Source of the DNA: an uncultured Peptostreptococcaceae bacterium
Lineage (GTDB): Bacteria > Bacillota > Clostridia > Tissierellales > Peptoniphilaceae
DNA length: 11,926 bases
Assembly: GCA_945910665.1 (NCBI GenBank)
Contig: CAMDZK010000013.1
Span: 1 to 11,926, forward strand
Direction of reading: 5' to 3'
Under the pieces are notes generated by a model that worked only from the letters and a program-made list of their open reading frames with translations, was not told the DNA's origin and did no database searches. This document shows positions 5,324-9,514 of the stretch, piece after piece. The stretch's first letter is position 1; each line of letters opens with the position of its first letter. The position numbers were made by a program, and so were the translations under genes.

Positions 5324-5349
5324 GTGTAAAGGATTATCACATCGGGTAT
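5324..5349 (+). promoter_or_regulatory. Sigma-B-type promoter of the YflT-domain gene
   Basis: GTGTAA (5324-5329) and GGGTAT (5344-5349) are separated by 14 bp. The B. subtilis general-stress sigma-B consensus is GTTTAA, 12-15 bp, GGGWAW, so there is one mismatch in 12. The gene downstream has a domain typical of the sigma-B regulon. No well-spaced sigma-A pair is seen in the same 70-bp gap. A perfect AAGGAGG Shine-Dalgarno at 5368-5374 sits 8 bases before the ATG. Base-level match is seen; sigma-factor assignment is inferred. Confidence 0.5.
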
Positions 5350-5382
5350 ATAAAGACAAATACCTTTAAGGAGGCTACAACG

Positions 5383-6621
5383 ATGAGATGGGAAGTATTT
5401 GATACACAATTAGAAGTAATCGAACGAATCCAGCAGTTACAAGCGGAAGGGTACACCAAAAATGAAATCGAAGTATTCCATGACGCGTATCGTGACATTC
5501 CTGCAGTCGCAGAAGCGGATGTGGATATAGTAGACGTACAAGAAGAAAGCAGAGATGAAACGATTATCGATCGCTTTGTGCGTTGGGTATCTGGACATGA
5601 AACGATGGATCAACTCTTTGAGGACCATGATATGCCTGCAGAAGACCGCGAGCGTTATCGTGAAGCCGTCCGAAACGGAAAAATTATCATCGCTGTGGAC
5701 AGCCATGCAGAACATGATCATGTGTTGCATGATGAACACGACCACGTAGATGAAGATATGCGTAGAAATTCCAAACGAGAGAACAACGTTCTTCATAATG
5801 AATCAGTGGAAAGAAATCACGAATACGTGAATCGTGACCTTCGCTTTGACCCAGAAGATCCAATGGATCCAGAAAATAAGAAGAGAACATTCCACGACAA
5901 CCAAGTGGTTGATGGAACCAATGACGATTTAGTTAATCGTTATGGAAAAAAATCTACAAGTGTTGAAAATGAGCCGATTGCGGTTCCTCCAACAGAAGGT
6001 CAAGTCTATGAAAGTGACCTTACAAGAGAACACGATGTTCCACAAACCGATCATCGAGTGTATTCAGAAGACCCTTATGATCCTGCAGAAATTGATGAAG
6101 ATCCAAATCGTCCTCTCACGTATAAAGAGGAAGAAATGGTGGATCCAACCATCAGAAAAGATCATGATTTAGCCAATGAACCAATCGCAGTACCGCCAAA
6201 AGAAGATCAAATCTACGATGAAGATGTACGTAAAGACCTTCACGACAATCTCCATCATACGGATGCAAGAGTTTATTCTGAAGATCCATATGATGAGCAT
6301 GATGTCGATGAACAAGGGAATCAAGTCATTCGTAAAGATTTAGGCGTTGATCGTGATGAATTGATTGAAAAAGATCACGATGTGAAGTTACACCAACAAA
6401 CAGATTATAAAGGACAAGGACAAAACGAAGAAGTTATGAATCCGGAAGGCGAAGATTTAATCGTCGATAATCCAGATTACAATAAAGAAGAAATTCGTTT
6501 AGAAGAGCAAGTGAACAATCATTTCCACAAACCACATGTAGGAGAAGATGCGATTTTAGACCCTAATCAGCATCAATTCCCACTGGATGGAATGCAAGAG
6601 AAGAAAAACCACGACCTCTAA
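5383..6621 (+). CDS. YflT-domain (general stress protein 17M-like) protein with long acidic His-rich repeat tail
   Basis: The 412-aa protein has two parts. Residues 1 to about 107 match the YflT / heat-induced stress protein fold of B. subtilis GspM. It opens with a strand-helix pattern (WEVFDTQLEVIERIQQLQAE), then KNEIEVF, a short DRFVRWVSGHE segment, an RYREAVRNGKIIIAV strand and H108. The remaining 300 or so residues are very rich in Asp, Glu, His and Asn and lack any hydrophobic core, so they are probably disordered. They contain a His-Asp cluster at 108-125 and a near-duplicated block (196-240 and 265-311) sharing NEPIAVPP and RVYSEDPYD. There is no signal peptide or membrane segment. 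The ATG has a perfect Shine-Dalgarno, and a perfect terminator follows. YflT proteins are usually little more than the N-terminal domain; long repetitive tails are known in related proteins, but their function is unknown. Stress protection or metal/water binding is speculation. Confidence 0.85.
   Translation: MRWEVFDTQLEVIERIQQLQAEGYTKNEIEVFHDAYRDIPAVAEADVDIVDVQEESRDETIIDRFVRWVSGHETMDQLFEDHDMPAEDRERYREAVRNGKIIIAVDSHAEHDHVLHDEHDHVDEDMRRNSKRENNVLHNESVERNHEYVNRDLRFDPEDPMDPENKKRTFHDNQVVDGTNDDLVNRYGKKSTSVENEPIAVPPTEGQVYESDLTREHDVPQTDHRVYSEDPYDPAEIDEDPNRPLTYKEEEMVDPTIRKDHDLANEPIAVPPKEDQIYDEDVRKDLHDNLHHTDARVYSEDPYDEHDVDEQGNQVIRKDLGVDRDELIEKDHDVKLHQQTDYKGQGQNEEVMNPEGEDLIVDNPDYNKEEIRLEEQVNNHFHKPHVGEDAILDPNQHQFPLDGMQEKKNHDL
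5968..6306 (+). repeat. Imperfect in-frame tandem repeat within the YflT-domain gene
   Basis: Two copies of a block of about 69-71 codons start at 5968 (residue 196) and 6175 (residue 265). Shared segments are NEPIAVPP (offset 69 residues) and RVYSEDPYD (225-233 and 296-304, offset 71 residues), so the copies differ by a small indel. The nucleotide sequences have drifted more than the peptide motifs, which suggests the protein motifs are under selection rather than recently duplicated. Confidence 0.75.
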
Positions 6622-6641
6622 AAAAGTTCAAACCTTTACCG

Positions 6642-6676
6642 AAAGCATGTAAGTTTAACGCTTACATGCTTTTTTT
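6642..6676 (+). terminator. Intrinsic terminator after the YflT-domain gene
   Basis: A perfect 12-bp stem (6642-6653 with 6661-6672) has a 7-base loop, and the T run extends to 6676. It is one of the strongest terminators in the window. Confidence 0.95.
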
Positions 6677-6715
6677 ATGATTTTTCTACTCAATTTGTAC
6701 CTTGGGGCAAAGTCT

Positions 6716-6744
6716 TTGTATTTATTTTGCTAAGGGCTTATAAT
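6716..6744 (+). promoter_or_regulatory. Promoter of the lplA-lipA operon
   Basis: A perfect TATAAT is at 6739-6744, with TTGTAT at 6716-6721 and a 17-bp spacer. The predicted start lies near 6751, leaving a short leader with AAAGGAGG at 6761-6768. A palindrome, CAAAG-T-CTTTG (6708-6718), overlaps the upstream edge of the -35. Confidence 0.65.
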
Positions 6745-6774
6745 AGAATGAGGACATTCAAAAGGAGGAAGCCT

Positions 6775-7788
6775 TTGTTATATCTCATCAATACACAGAC
6801 TGATCCTGCCATTAACCATGCCATTGAAGAATACTTTTTAAAAGAAACTGACGAAGAAATCATCAGCCTTTGGCAGCATGATAAAACGGTTCTTTTAGGG
6901 AGAAATCAAGATGTATACACAGAAGTAGACGTGGACTTTTGCAAAGAAAACGGCCTAAACATCGTCAGGCGACTCTCTGGAGGCGGGACGATTTATTGTG
7001 ATGTAAATAATATGCAGTACTCTTTTATCGGACAGCACGAGGATAAAAGTACGCAAGAATTATTTGAACAATACGCAGAGCCCATTGTGCAAGCCCTTCG
7101 AAAAATTGGAATCGATGCTGCGTTTACGGGAAGAAACGACATCGTTGTCGATGGAAAGAAGATTTCTGGCAATGCCCAGTATCGATACAAGCATCGCATT
7201 CTTCATCATGGTACGCTTTTATTTGATATTGATACAAAAATGCTCCAAGGAGCGATTCGTACACGAGAAGAAAAGTACAAGGGGAAGGGTGTCCCATCTG
7301 TGGTTTCTCGCATTGGGACTCTATCGCAAATGACGGATATGGACATCCATGCTTTTATGGACTATATCATCGGCGAACTTAAAGAATACGTAGGGACGGA
7401 CAAAGTCATCAAAGTTGACGATGCACTTCTCGCAAAAGTCGAGCCTTATATCACCCGTTTCAGAGATTCCAACTGGAATTTTGGTCATAAGGCTGAACAA
7501 GCGGTACAAACAGTGATTAAACATCCCTTTGGACTGATGGATTATCGCCTCACCTTTGAAGAAGGAAAAATTTATCAGGCGTGTATTTGCGGAGACTACT
7601 TCTCGGAAGCCGATTGTAAAGAGTTAGAAAAAGAACTCGTTGGCTGTCTCATGGATGAAGAAAGTTTAAAAGAACGACTTAAAGAGATTCCCGTGTCGAA
7701 GTATATTTCAGGCATGGAAAAAGAACAATTAATACAAGATTTAATGGAGGGAAGAAATTGCTATGAAGAGAAAACCCGATTGGATTAA
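6775..7788 (+). CDS. lplA: Lipoate-protein ligase A (TTG start)
   Basis: The 337-aa enzyme uses ATP to activate free lipoate (or octanoate) and attaches it to a lysine of carrier domains such as glycine cleavage H protein or 2-oxoacid dehydrogenase E2. The N-terminal domain contains the family motif RRLSGGGTIYCD (65-76). The catalytic lysine region is DGKKISGNAQ (126-135, probably K129), followed by HHGTLLFDID (144-153). The C-terminal accessory domain follows from about residue 215 to 337. The start is assigned to TTG at 6775 because AAAGGAGG (6761-6768) lies 6 bases upstream and the product then begins LYLINTQTDPAINHAIEEYFL, as expected for LplA. A longer frame from 6727 would begin upstream of the TATAAT and is not credible. 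Its last 26 bases overlap lipA, indicating co-transcription and coupled translation. Confidence 0.92.
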   Translation: MLYLINTQTDPAINHAIEEYFLKETDEEIISLWQHDKTVLLGRNQDVYTEVDVDFCKENGLNIVRRLSGGGTIYCDVNNMQYSFIGQHEDKSTQELFEQYAEPIVQALRKIGIDAAFTGRNDIVVDGKKISGNAQYRYKHRILHHGTLLFDIDTKMLQGAIRTREEKYKGKGVPSVVSRIGTLSQMTDMDIHAFMDYIIGELKEYVGTDKVIKVDDALLAKVEPYITRFRDSNWNFGHKAEQAVQTVIKHPFGLMDYRLTFEEGKIYQACICGDYFSEADCKELEKELVGCLMDEESLKERLKEIPVSKYISGMEKEQLIQDLMEGRNCYEEKTRLD

Positions 7789-8623
7789 AATAAAAATTCA
7801 AGGTGCGCAAACGACAAAAGGTGTTGTTAAGGCATTAAAGACAAACAACTTGACGACTGTATGTCATGAAGCGAATTGCCCCAATCGCATGGAATGTTAT
7901 GAAGCGGGCACTGCGACTTTTATGATTATGGGAAATCACTGTACGAGAAACTGCAAGTTCTGTAATGTAACGACAAGAAAACCACTTCCCCTTGACCCAG
8001 AAGAACCAAAACACGTGGCAGAAGCGGTCAAGGAATTGGGAATACAACATGCGGTCATAACATCTGTGGATCGTGACGATTTAGAAGATGAAGGGGCAAA
8101 CCACTTTGCCGACGTGTGTCGTCAAGTGAAAGAAATGAATCCTGACGTAACGGTGGAACTATTGATCCCCGATTTTCATGCAAAAGAAGAGTTGCTCGAT
8201 ATTGTCCTCGCATCAAAACCAGACGTGTTAAACCACAATGTGGAAACTGTGCCTGAATTTTTTGAAGAAATTTGCCCGCAAAGTAATTTTGAGGATTCCA
8301 TCCACGTGCTAGAGTACGCAAAAGAAAAAGGCTTTGTCACAAAGTCTGGGATGATGGTTGGGTTCGGAGAAACACCAGAAATGGTATACAATGTCATGAA
8401 AAGACTCAGAGAAGTTGGAGTGGATATGCTCACCATCGGACAGTATTTACAACCTTCCAAAGAGCATATTGAGGTTGTTGAGTACGTGCATCCCGATCAA
8501 TTTGCTGAGTATAAAGAGAGAGGTTTGGAGATGGGCTTTAAACGTGTTGAATCGTCTCCCTTTGTGAGAAGTTCATATCATGCAGAAGCCCTTGTAGAAG
8601 AAGGGGCTGTCGAAGCAGAATAA
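7763..8623 (+). CDS. lipA: Lipoyl synthase (radical SAM)
   Basis: The 286-aa radical SAM enzyme inserts two sulfurs into protein-bound octanoyl groups to make lipoyl groups. Both [4Fe-4S] sites are complete. The auxiliary cluster motif is C34-(4)-C39-(5)-C45 (CHEANCPNRMEC) and the radical SAM motif is C60-(3)-C64-(2)-C67 (CTRNCKFC). The C-terminal RSSYHA (269-274) supplies the serine ligand known for the auxiliary cluster. Length is normal for the family. The ATG at 7763 lies inside the lplA 3' end, with GGAGGG at 7746-7751 as Shine-Dalgarno (11 bases, slightly long spacing). No octanoyltransferase gene (lipB/lipM) is present in the window, so the ligase upstream may load octanoate for this enzyme as well as scavenged lipoate. 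The gene is closed by a strong terminator. Confidence 0.97.
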   Translation: MKRKPDWIKIKIQGAQTTKGVVKALKTNNLTTVCHEANCPNRMECYEAGTATFMIMGNHCTRNCKFCNVTTRKPLPLDPEEPKHVAEAVKELGIQHAVITSVDRDDLEDEGANHFADVCRQVKEMNPDVTVELLIPDFHAKEELLDIVLASKPDVLNHNVETVPEFFEEICPQSNFEDSIHVLEYAKEKGFVTKSGMMVGFGETPEMVYNVMKRLREVGVDMLTIGQYLQPSKEHIEVVEYVHPDQFAEYKERGLEMGFKRVESSPFVRSSYHAEALVEEGAVEAE

Positions 8624-8652
8624 AAAAATGCCGCAGAATTTGCGGCATTTTT
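8624..8652. terminator. Bidirectional terminator between lipA and the convergent editing gene
   Basis: A perfect 12-bp stem (8624-8635 with 8641-8652) surrounds a 5-base loop. The core is ATGCCGCA/TGCGGCAT. The flanks give a T run on the plus strand (8648-8652) and a seven-T run on the minus strand (complement of 8622-8628). It serves the two genes that converge on it. Confidence 0.93.
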
Positions 8653-8655
8653 CAA

Positions 8656-9138
8656 TTACATTCTTACAATTTGAACGTCATTACCTATTTTTTCAATTGC
8701 TTTGACCAAGTCATTAAATGAAATCCAAATCGTCGCTTCGTTTGTATTTGGATGAATGCCTAGACGTTCTTGTCCTTCCAATACTTTATCGAAGACGACA
8801 GTTACCATATGGTCTTCATTGTTTATAACGCCAAAAGGAGATACATATCCAGTAGCTAAACCCAACTGTTTTTTGAGGCGATCTGCAGATGCAAAGCTAA
8901 CTTTTCCGGCACCTATTTTTTCTCCTAAAGATCTTAAATCGACTTGTGTATCATTATCTGCGACGATTAACCAGTGGCGTTTCCCTTTTTGATCGCGGAC
9001 AAACATATTTTTACAAAGGGTCCCTTTTTCTGAAAGACCAATACGCACCATGTCGTCCATCGTAAGGACAGGCTCGTGCTCTGTCACTTCGTATTGAATG
9101 TTTTCTTGATCGAGAAAGTCATACACTTGTTGTTTCAT
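8656..9138 (-). CDS. YbaK/ProX-type aminoacyl-tRNA deacylase (prolyl-tRNA synthetase-associated domain protein)
   Basis: The 160-aa free-standing editing domain belongs to the YbaK/INS family. The ProX/PrdX/ProXp-ala subgroup hydrolyses mischarged Ala-tRNA(Pro). Conserved features are TEHEPVLTMDDM (19-30), the lysine of LCKNMFVRD (K43), VDLRSLGEKIGAGKVSFAS (66-84), the subgroup signature GYVSPFGVINNED (97-109) and HPNTNEATIWIS (129-140). The SPFG-IN motif and length favour the ProXp-ala-like subgroup over the Cys-tRNA(Pro) editor YbaK itself; exact substrate is inferred. The start at 9138 is backed by a Shine-Dalgarno AAGGAGG (complement of 9144-9150). No good sigma-A promoter is seen within 50 bases, so transcription may come through the structured RNA upstream (9180-9303). 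The gene is convergent with lipA and shares its terminator. Confidence 0.9.
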   Translation of the reverse strand: MKQQVYDFLDQENIQYEVTEHEPVLTMDDMVRIGLSEKGTLCKNMFVRDQKGKRHWLIVADNDTQVDLRSLGEKIGAGKVSFASADRLKKQLGLATGYVSPFGVINNEDHMVTVVFDKVLEGQERLGIHPNTNEATIWISFNDLVKAIEKIGNDVQIVRM

Positions 9139-9179
9139 TGTTTCCTCCTTAATTCACTTTTCGTTATGTATATACCCAT

Positions 9180-9303
9180 AAAAAGAAATCGACCCCTTTC
9201 GTTGGAAAGGGGTAGGAGATGAGTACGGTTTGTCACCGTAGATTTTACGAAAGTTTGTATGTTTCCATACAAGAAGGCAACTTACGTAAAAGTTATTCAC
9301 TAT
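9180..9303 (-). ncRNA. Putative structured small RNA or attenuator-type leader upstream of the editing gene
   Basis: Read on the minus strand, three hairpins follow a promoter. H1 (9291-9243) has an outer stem TTTTACG/CGTAAAA, a 1x1 mismatch, a middle stem AAGTT/AACTT, a seven-base one-sided bulge, and an apical stem TGTATG/CATACA capped by a GAAA (GNRA) tetraloop. H2 (9240-9224) is a perfect 6-bp stem TACGGT/ACCGTA with a GACAA loop. H3 (9213-9192) is a perfect 9-bp stem ACCCCTTTC/GAAAGGGGT with a CAAC loop, followed by CGA and TTTCTTTTT, resembling an intrinsic terminator. The predicted start is an A near 9303. No credible ORF is present. I do not recognise a known riboswitch or RNA family. 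It could be an independent RNA of about 120 nt or the 5' leader of the gene starting at 9138. Confidence 0.5.
9192..9213 (-). terminator. Terminator-like hairpin H3 upstream of the editing gene
   Basis: The stem is a perfect 9 bp with a 4-base loop. On the minus strand it is followed after three bases by TTTCTTTTT (9188-9180). On the plus strand it has no T tract, so it works, if at all, for minus-strand transcription. The three-base gap before the T tract makes it weaker than the other terminators here. Confidence 0.55.
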
Positions 9304-9309
9304 AGCTGT

Positions 9310-9337
9310 ATTATAGGCTAAATCACTTTGTTGAAAA
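9310..9337 (-). promoter_or_regulatory. Promoter of the structured RNA or leader
   Basis: On the minus strand a perfect TATAAT (9315-9310) has TTTTCA (9337-9332, 4 of 6 matches) 16 bp upstream. The tRNA-Thr promoter uses the same -35 hexamer. The rest of the region up to the tRNA terminator (about 9338-9410) holds two weak inverted repeats (AAGAGA/TCTCTT and GACTG/CAGTC) and no gene that I can support. Confidence 0.55.
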
Positions 9338-9410
9338 AGACTGTAAAACGACACATATATTAAATCAGTCGATAAAGAGATAAGATTCTCTTGTGCATCC
9401 TTGAAAGCAC

Positions 9411-9439
9411 AAAAAAGAAACGACTCTCGTCGTTTCTTT
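9411..9439 (-). terminator. Intrinsic terminator of tRNA-Thr
   Basis: A perfect 11-bp stem (9439-9429 with 9424-9414) has a 4-base loop and a T run on the minus strand (complement of 9416-9411). The stem begins at the A of the encoded CCA end, so the mature tRNA 3' end abuts the hairpin. Confidence 0.88.
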
Positions 9440-9514
9440 GGAGCTGCTGGGCGGATTTGAACCGCCGACCTATTGATTACGAATCAATTGCTCTACCAGC
9501 TGAGCCACAGCAGC
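9439..9514 (-). tRNA. tRNA-Thr (anticodon CGU)
   Basis: The complete cloverleaf is on the minus strand, 76 nt including an encoded CCA. The acceptor GCTGCTG pairs with CAGCAGC, the D stem is GCTC/GAGC, the anticodon stem ATTGA/TCAAT encloses the loop TTCGTAA with anticodon CGT (reads ACG), and the T arm is GGCGG-TTCAAAT-CCGCC. The discriminator is U followed by CCA. It has its own promoter and terminator, so it is a single-gene unit. Confidence 0.97.

Follow-up and report, generated by a model that had tools for sequence, protein, structure and literature searches.

A candidate leader or small RNA, apparently lineage-restricted, upstream of a ProXp-ala-like editing gene

The minus-strand gap between a tRNA-Thr gene and a gene for a YbaK/ProX-type aminoacyl-tRNA editing protein raises the question of whether it encodes a leader of the editing gene, a separate small RNA or no functional RNA. 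The gap lies in a stretch of 11,926 nucleotides (the window) on one contig (C13) of a draft genome of 1.26 Mb that is 76.5% complete. Of the matches listed for its PepF protein (at least 120), the highest with an organism name were from Caldanaerobacter, Thermoanaerobacter, Proteiniborus and Tissierellales/Tissierellia bacteria (identity up to 49%), some Bacilli reached 46-48%, and matches lacking a name reached 80%, self excluded; from these identities, the source may be related to the Tissierellia. An earlier note on this DNA had described a TATAAT promoter followed by three hairpins, and proposed either a small RNA gene or an aptamer-plus-terminator leader, without a match to known riboswitch classes. 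As detailed below, its description was partly confirmed, being right in large part, its interpretation was partly supported, and its caution was justified.

Layout and folding of the gap

All three hairpins were found where the earlier note had placed them on the minus strand (Table 1), including the compound hairpin of 49 nt with its GAAA loop and the perfect 6-bp hairpin, and the Shine-Dalgarno sequence and start codon (9138) of the editing gene are present downstream of the hairpins.

Table 1. Features of the gap and its flanks, in the order in which the minus strand is read.
Feature	Coordinates	Strand	Remark
tRNA-Thr (CGT), upstream neighbor	9439..9514	-	feature and Rfam search
Strong intrinsic terminator of tRNA-Thr	9414..9439	-	d +18.3; separates tRNA-Thr from the RNA
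Promoter-like TTTTCA-16 nt-TATAAT	9310..9337	-	10/12 matches; TATAAT 9315-9310; predicted start near 9303
Hairpin 1, compound, 49 nt, GAAA loop, asymmetric 7-nt bulge GCCUUCU	9243..9291	-	z -4.35
Hairpin 2, perfect 6-bp stem UACGGU/ACCGUA, loop GACAA	9224..9240	-	folding
Linker CUCAUCUCCU between hairpins 2 and 3	9214..9223	-	UCUCCU inside can pair with the Shine-Dalgarno sequence
Hairpin 3, 9 bp (9213-9192), displaced T tract 9188-9180; weak, terminator-like	9180..9213	-	d -29.2
GGGTATATA, possible -10-like element of the editing gene, 39 nt 5' of its start	9169..9177	-	GGGTAT counts
Shine-Dalgarno AGGAGG of the editing gene	9149-9144	-	
160-aa YbaK/ProX-type aminoacyl-tRNA editing protein (ProXp-ala-like)	8656..9138	-	PF04073, 98.1 bits

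The folding stability of the region was compared to that of shuffled sequences and of other windows from the same genome. A 134-nt stretch folded at -35.8 kcal/mol (z -4.37), and none of 200 shuffles was equally stable. The same count (0/200) was obtained for hairpins 1 and 2 without hairpin 3 (z -4.21) and for hairpin 1 alone. When the 134-nt target was scored with 25 shuffles (z -3.02), it ranked 52 among 571 windows of its own genome, itself included. For a 90-nt target (z -3.8), equal or greater stability was seen in 9 of 462 own-genome windows that a filter had classed as terminator-free, and several of the nine look like terminators it had missed; the filter had removed another 422 windows as terminator-bearing, and 10 surrounding the target were excluded. 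Both backgrounds, 276,524 bases in all, comprised the window and 20 of the genome's 219 contigs, with crude ORF calls. By this comparison, the stability of the element, taken alone, is not exceptional within its own genome.

Hairpin 3 was scored as an intrinsic terminator by use of a d'Aubenton-Carafa-type formula, in which a d value of 0 is the threshold. The hairpin and T tract noted earlier are present; the strength of a terminator is not, as d was -29.2 (nT 1.71) because the displaced tract begins only after UCGA (CGATTTCTTTTT directly 3' of the 9-bp stem on the minus strand). Of two neighboring terminators, that of tRNA-Thr scored +18.3 and that 3' of the editing gene +36.2 on the minus strand; the latter hairpin scored +10.6 when taken as the plus-strand terminator of lipA. 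Among the best hairpins beside the stop codons of 29 convergent gene pairs (n = 52), 18 had d above 0 and 34 below. A simple pattern scan accepted hairpin 3 as a terminator. By the d criterion, hairpin 3 ranks as a poor intrinsic terminator; termination would therefore be partial at best, and read-through into the editing gene is likely.

In a fold of the whole leader, the linker UCUCCU forms six pairs with the Shine-Dalgarno sequence AGGAGG, one of them G-U; the predicted probability is about 0.8-0.85 for every pair except the outer one (0.3). This occlusion was not beyond chance, since 8.5% of 200 shuffled leaders equaled it, as did 8 of 87 genes of the same genome. Sites complementary to the linker with up to two mismatches were also at chance level in the genome (7, itself included, vs 6 for the reversed control). 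The only antiterminator tried, in which CUUUCGU of hairpin 1 pairs with ACGAAAG of hairpin 3, was rejected, since it folded at -33.1 vs -45.2 kcal/mol and was thus about 12 kcal/mol worse. A 66-aa frame that spans the region (9154-9354) was considered as a leader peptide because it carries three CCN codons; it had no homologue, no Pfam match and no visible ribosome site, and was likewise rejected.

Known RNA families and searches for relatives

When region 9120-9437 was searched with Rfam 15 (4227 models), no family reached its gathering threshold, which bears out the earlier statement that no known riboswitch class could be matched. The sub-threshold matches within this region were PyrG_leader, SpF25 (over the tRNA terminator) and snR107. 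The highest, PyrG_leader (RF02371), scored 19.6 bits (E 2.9), and its paired part was the CCCUUUC hairpin only. The element shares with PyrG leaders a terminator-type hairpin of the form CCCUUUC...GAAAGGG with a U-rich tail; however, the gene here is not pyrG, and the score is far below the cut-off of 65 bits. Reiterative transcription at PyrG leaders needs a G run at the start of the transcript, and the predicted start region here, ATAGTGAATAAC, has no initial GGG run.

T-box leaders of aminoacyl-tRNA synthetase and amino-acid genes in Firmicutes resemble the locus in having a structured leader, a terminator-like hairpin and a translation-related gene downstream. The conserved T-box sequence is AGGGUGGNACCGCG. 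By contrast, neither T-box nor guanidine riboswitch families were among the Rfam matches at E up to 10, and AGGGUGGNACCGCG (or AGGGTGGNACCGCG) was not matched anywhere in the window with up to three mismatches. Firmicutes also have intergenic small RNAs with C-rich anti-Shine-Dalgarno linkers, to which the promoter-like site, hairpins and exposed CUCCU are similar; the candidate here differs in its weak terminator and lack of target excess, and is known from sequence alone. A precedent for a leader ahead of a stand-alone tRNA-editing gene is CtdA, a different editing protein that is frequently found under guanidine riboswitches (PMC10018355). Compared to that system, our locus has no guanidine riboswitch match, and the protein family is YbaK/ProX rather than B3/4 (CtdA).

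Relatives of the RNA were sought by several approaches. When 181 bases were searched by BLAST against 149 genomes, our own among them, matches at E up to 1 were obtained in 126, again counting our own, and among the matches listed, those other than self were only short pieces (16-43 nt; lowest E 0.00138). A single-sequence covariance model found only the element itself in 130 family (E 0.1), 249 order (E 0.05) and 391 class genomes (E 0.02), sets that overlap and include the own genome; its strict filters lose weak matches and can miss diverged copies. Upstream of editing-gene homologues, no related leader was apparent by eye (19 and 27 loci, two shared; 3 of the 19 unalignable), and when 9150-9337 was compared by BLAST to 73 relative loci, no match had an E value below 0.4. 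The sequence 3' of the tRNA was read at 15 of 30 tRNA loci, one of them our own, and at none of the other 14 did it resemble the RNA. Exact pieces of hairpins 1 and 2 had no match in viral contigs. Since none of the searched genomes yielded a relative, the element is best described as a leader or small RNA that is unproven and probably lineage-specific, and not as a recognizable new riboswitch; it is apparently lineage-restricted, as judged from these sequence searches.

One recurrent exact match of 16 nt (query 64-79) was rejected as a sign of conservation, as 15 of the 20 regions examined were one and the same DNA segment, unrelated to the RNA; in the remaining 5 regions, neither of the two patterns tried was present. 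The segment is a 1,000-base stretch in 15 genomes of one family (G004, G008, G021, G023, G026, G032, G035, G064, G071, G081, G090, G093, G094, G106 and G107), identical in 13 and with one base different in 2. At the one locus read, the ORF beside it presumably resembles a conjugation ATPase, and the stretch appears to be a mobile element that spread recently.

Promoter-like sites, the editing gene and its neighborhood

The TATAAT reported earlier is present, with TTTTCA 16 nt upstream, as a promoter-like site. The match is not beyond chance, as the number of such sites in the region (3 observed vs 2.7 +/- 1.5 expected) was that of chance. Both hexamers recur with a spacing of 17 nt at 9555-9527, before tRNA-Thr. 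The terminator of tRNA-Thr closes the upstream unit, so a promoter is expected in the gap.

The element GGGTATATA may, by its sequence, be a separate promoter of the editing gene, in which case a leader would be unnecessary. GGGTAT was found within 110 nt upstream of 10 of 41 editing-gene homologues (own included; 44 were tried, of which 3 gave no alignment, and several are from the same genera) vs 10 of 216 ORFs of the own genome. In noncoding DNA of the sampled contigs plus the window, it occurred 25 times vs a mean of 15.6 over its 60 letter permutations, a modest enrichment, with five other permutations equally common or more so. Eight of these 25 sites, including that of the editing gene, lie 26-39 nt before a start codon. 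No good -35 was seen upstream of GGGTATATA. GGGTAT fits a SigB-type promoter for the editing gene, but a GTTTAA-like -35 at 12-15 nt was not seen.

SigB-type patterns were observed elsewhere. In four genomes of one genus (loci L116, L118, L121 and L122), editing-gene homologues are preceded by GTTTAG or GTTTGC-13 nt-GGGTAT, which corresponds to the SigB-type consensus; this pattern suggests stress control of the editing protein in those genomes. Within the window (5324-5383), GTGTAA-14 nt-GGGTAT precedes the start of ORF 5383-6621 by 39 nt and may, from its sequence, be a promoter of the same type. The product of this ORF is acidic and repetitive with no Pfam or NCBIfam match, and we take it to resemble general stress proteins. 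The own genome also carries an rsbV-rsbW-sigB-like operon after a gyrA-like gene (G000 contig C18, L143 2827-4274), in which the sigma factor passes the SigBFG model and the gyrA-like and two small rsb-like proteins were named by inspection. A SigBFG-type sigma factor was above the model cut-off in 128 of 130 family genomes.

The editing protein is a member of PF04073, and its closest match among solved structures was ProXp-ala (5vxb, E 7e-23). It was far below the cut-off of the YbaK subgroup model TIGR00011 (33.5 vs 153.25). The name Ala-tRNA(Pro) deacylase was carried by 7 of the 74 homologues listed, all from one source (jgi). The gene was matched in 17 of 61 genomes (E 0.001) and in 33 of 130 family genomes (E 1e-15), own included both times, and the closest match in those other genomes was 53% identical. 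The protein homologue P0002 was 80% identical. In a contig collection, the editing protein had one distant relative, with 34% identity over residues 59-144, and no relative of the protein was found in viral contigs.

The searched genomes include one other member of the genus (G001), which has no editing gene. Its tRNA-Thr adjoins a homologue of the protein encoded at 5383-6621 of the window (43% over 111 residues), with 44 bases only from the tRNA to the stop codon of this homologue (L072); the end of pepF comes next (75% over 95 residues), and the relative order is as in the window. Between the same flanks, the window has lplA, lipA, the editing gene and the RNA (6622-9438). As the sister genome has the conserved flanks but nothing of the lplA-lipA-editing gene-RNA block between them, the RNA apparently belongs to a block that was either gained in this lineage or lost in the sister.

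Readings of the element

We tentatively read the element as a structured 5' leader through which transcription leaks into the ProXp-ala-like editing gene, and rank this over an independent small RNA, which is nearly as likely, and over no function. The folding potential, the promoter-like site, the shared strand and the close spacing to the gene are all observed. In this model, a transcript would begin near 9303 on the minus strand and extend as a 165-nt structured leader into the editing gene at 9138. Hairpin 3 would serve as a leaky terminator: some transcripts would stop near 9180, leaving a stub of about 124 nt, and the others would read through. In the latter, the Shine-Dalgarno sequence may be masked by the linker CUCCU, which would keep expression of the editing gene low. 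Transcription, partial termination and translational masking are the modeled steps of this leader, in which no ligand or tRNA sensing is indicated. It is favored by the folding of hairpins 1 and 2 beyond shuffles, the strong tRNA-Thr terminator that leaves a promoter in the gap expected, the low score of hairpin 3, the predicted linker-Shine-Dalgarno pairing, and the presence of the RNA and editing gene in one block that is absent between the sister-genome flanks. These points are tempered by the lack of relatives in the searched genomes, the equal masking in shuffles and own genes, the promoter match at chance level, and GGGTATATA, which could be a separate promoter given the GGGTAT counts. 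The terminator part of the earlier proposal is weak, and leader and small RNA both stand as candidate readings.

That the region holds an independent small RNA gene is possible if somewhat doubtful. The transcript, about 124 nt long, would run from 9303 to about 9180 under a promoter of its own and end at hairpin 3, with GGGTATATA as promoter of the editing gene; its exposed linker could act on the Shine-Dalgarno sequences of other mRNAs. The compact three-hairpin layout with a final hairpin and U-rich tail, the hexamers identical to those before tRNA-Thr, and GGGTAT upstream of editing-gene homologues and at 26-39 nt from start codons speak for such a gene; the weak terminator, linker complements without target excess, no relative in other genomes and the modest enrichment of GGGTAT speak against it. 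That chance hairpins and a chance TATAAT occur here in an intergenic stretch without selection appears unlikely: the confinement of the element to its own genome in the searches run, the nine windows of at least equal stability and the chance-level promoter are as expected of such a stretch, yet two independent well-formed hairpins that no shuffle equaled are not, and the same-strand gap needs some promoter for the editing gene. We consider improbable a lineage-specific leader that combines partial termination with Shine-Dalgarno masking of the ProXp-ala-like gene in answer to a signal linked to mischarged tRNA. Most improbable is a new riboswitch or T-box-like leader that senses a metabolite or tRNA in response to stress from amino-acid mischarging. 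Conservation across genera is usual for riboswitch aptamers, and no conserved copy was found in the 130, 249 and 391 genomes; no Rfam class, T-box sequence or related leader before relatives of the gene was detected, and there was no clear competing antiterminator. The suggestion in the earlier note of a leader that senses tRNA, alanine or proline status was accordingly not sustained. For ligand, T-box or proline/alanine sensing, nothing is in support beyond the precedent of CtdA, frequently under guanidine riboswitches (PMC10018355).

A limited literature search, in which broader results were judged by their top entries, gave no example of RNA control of a YbaK/ProX-type proofreading enzyme. 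For now, the element adds to the orphan candidates among intergenic RNAs, its source being a probably uncultured bacterium; if the leader does regulate the editing gene, it would represent RNA control of a proofreading enzyme of this type.
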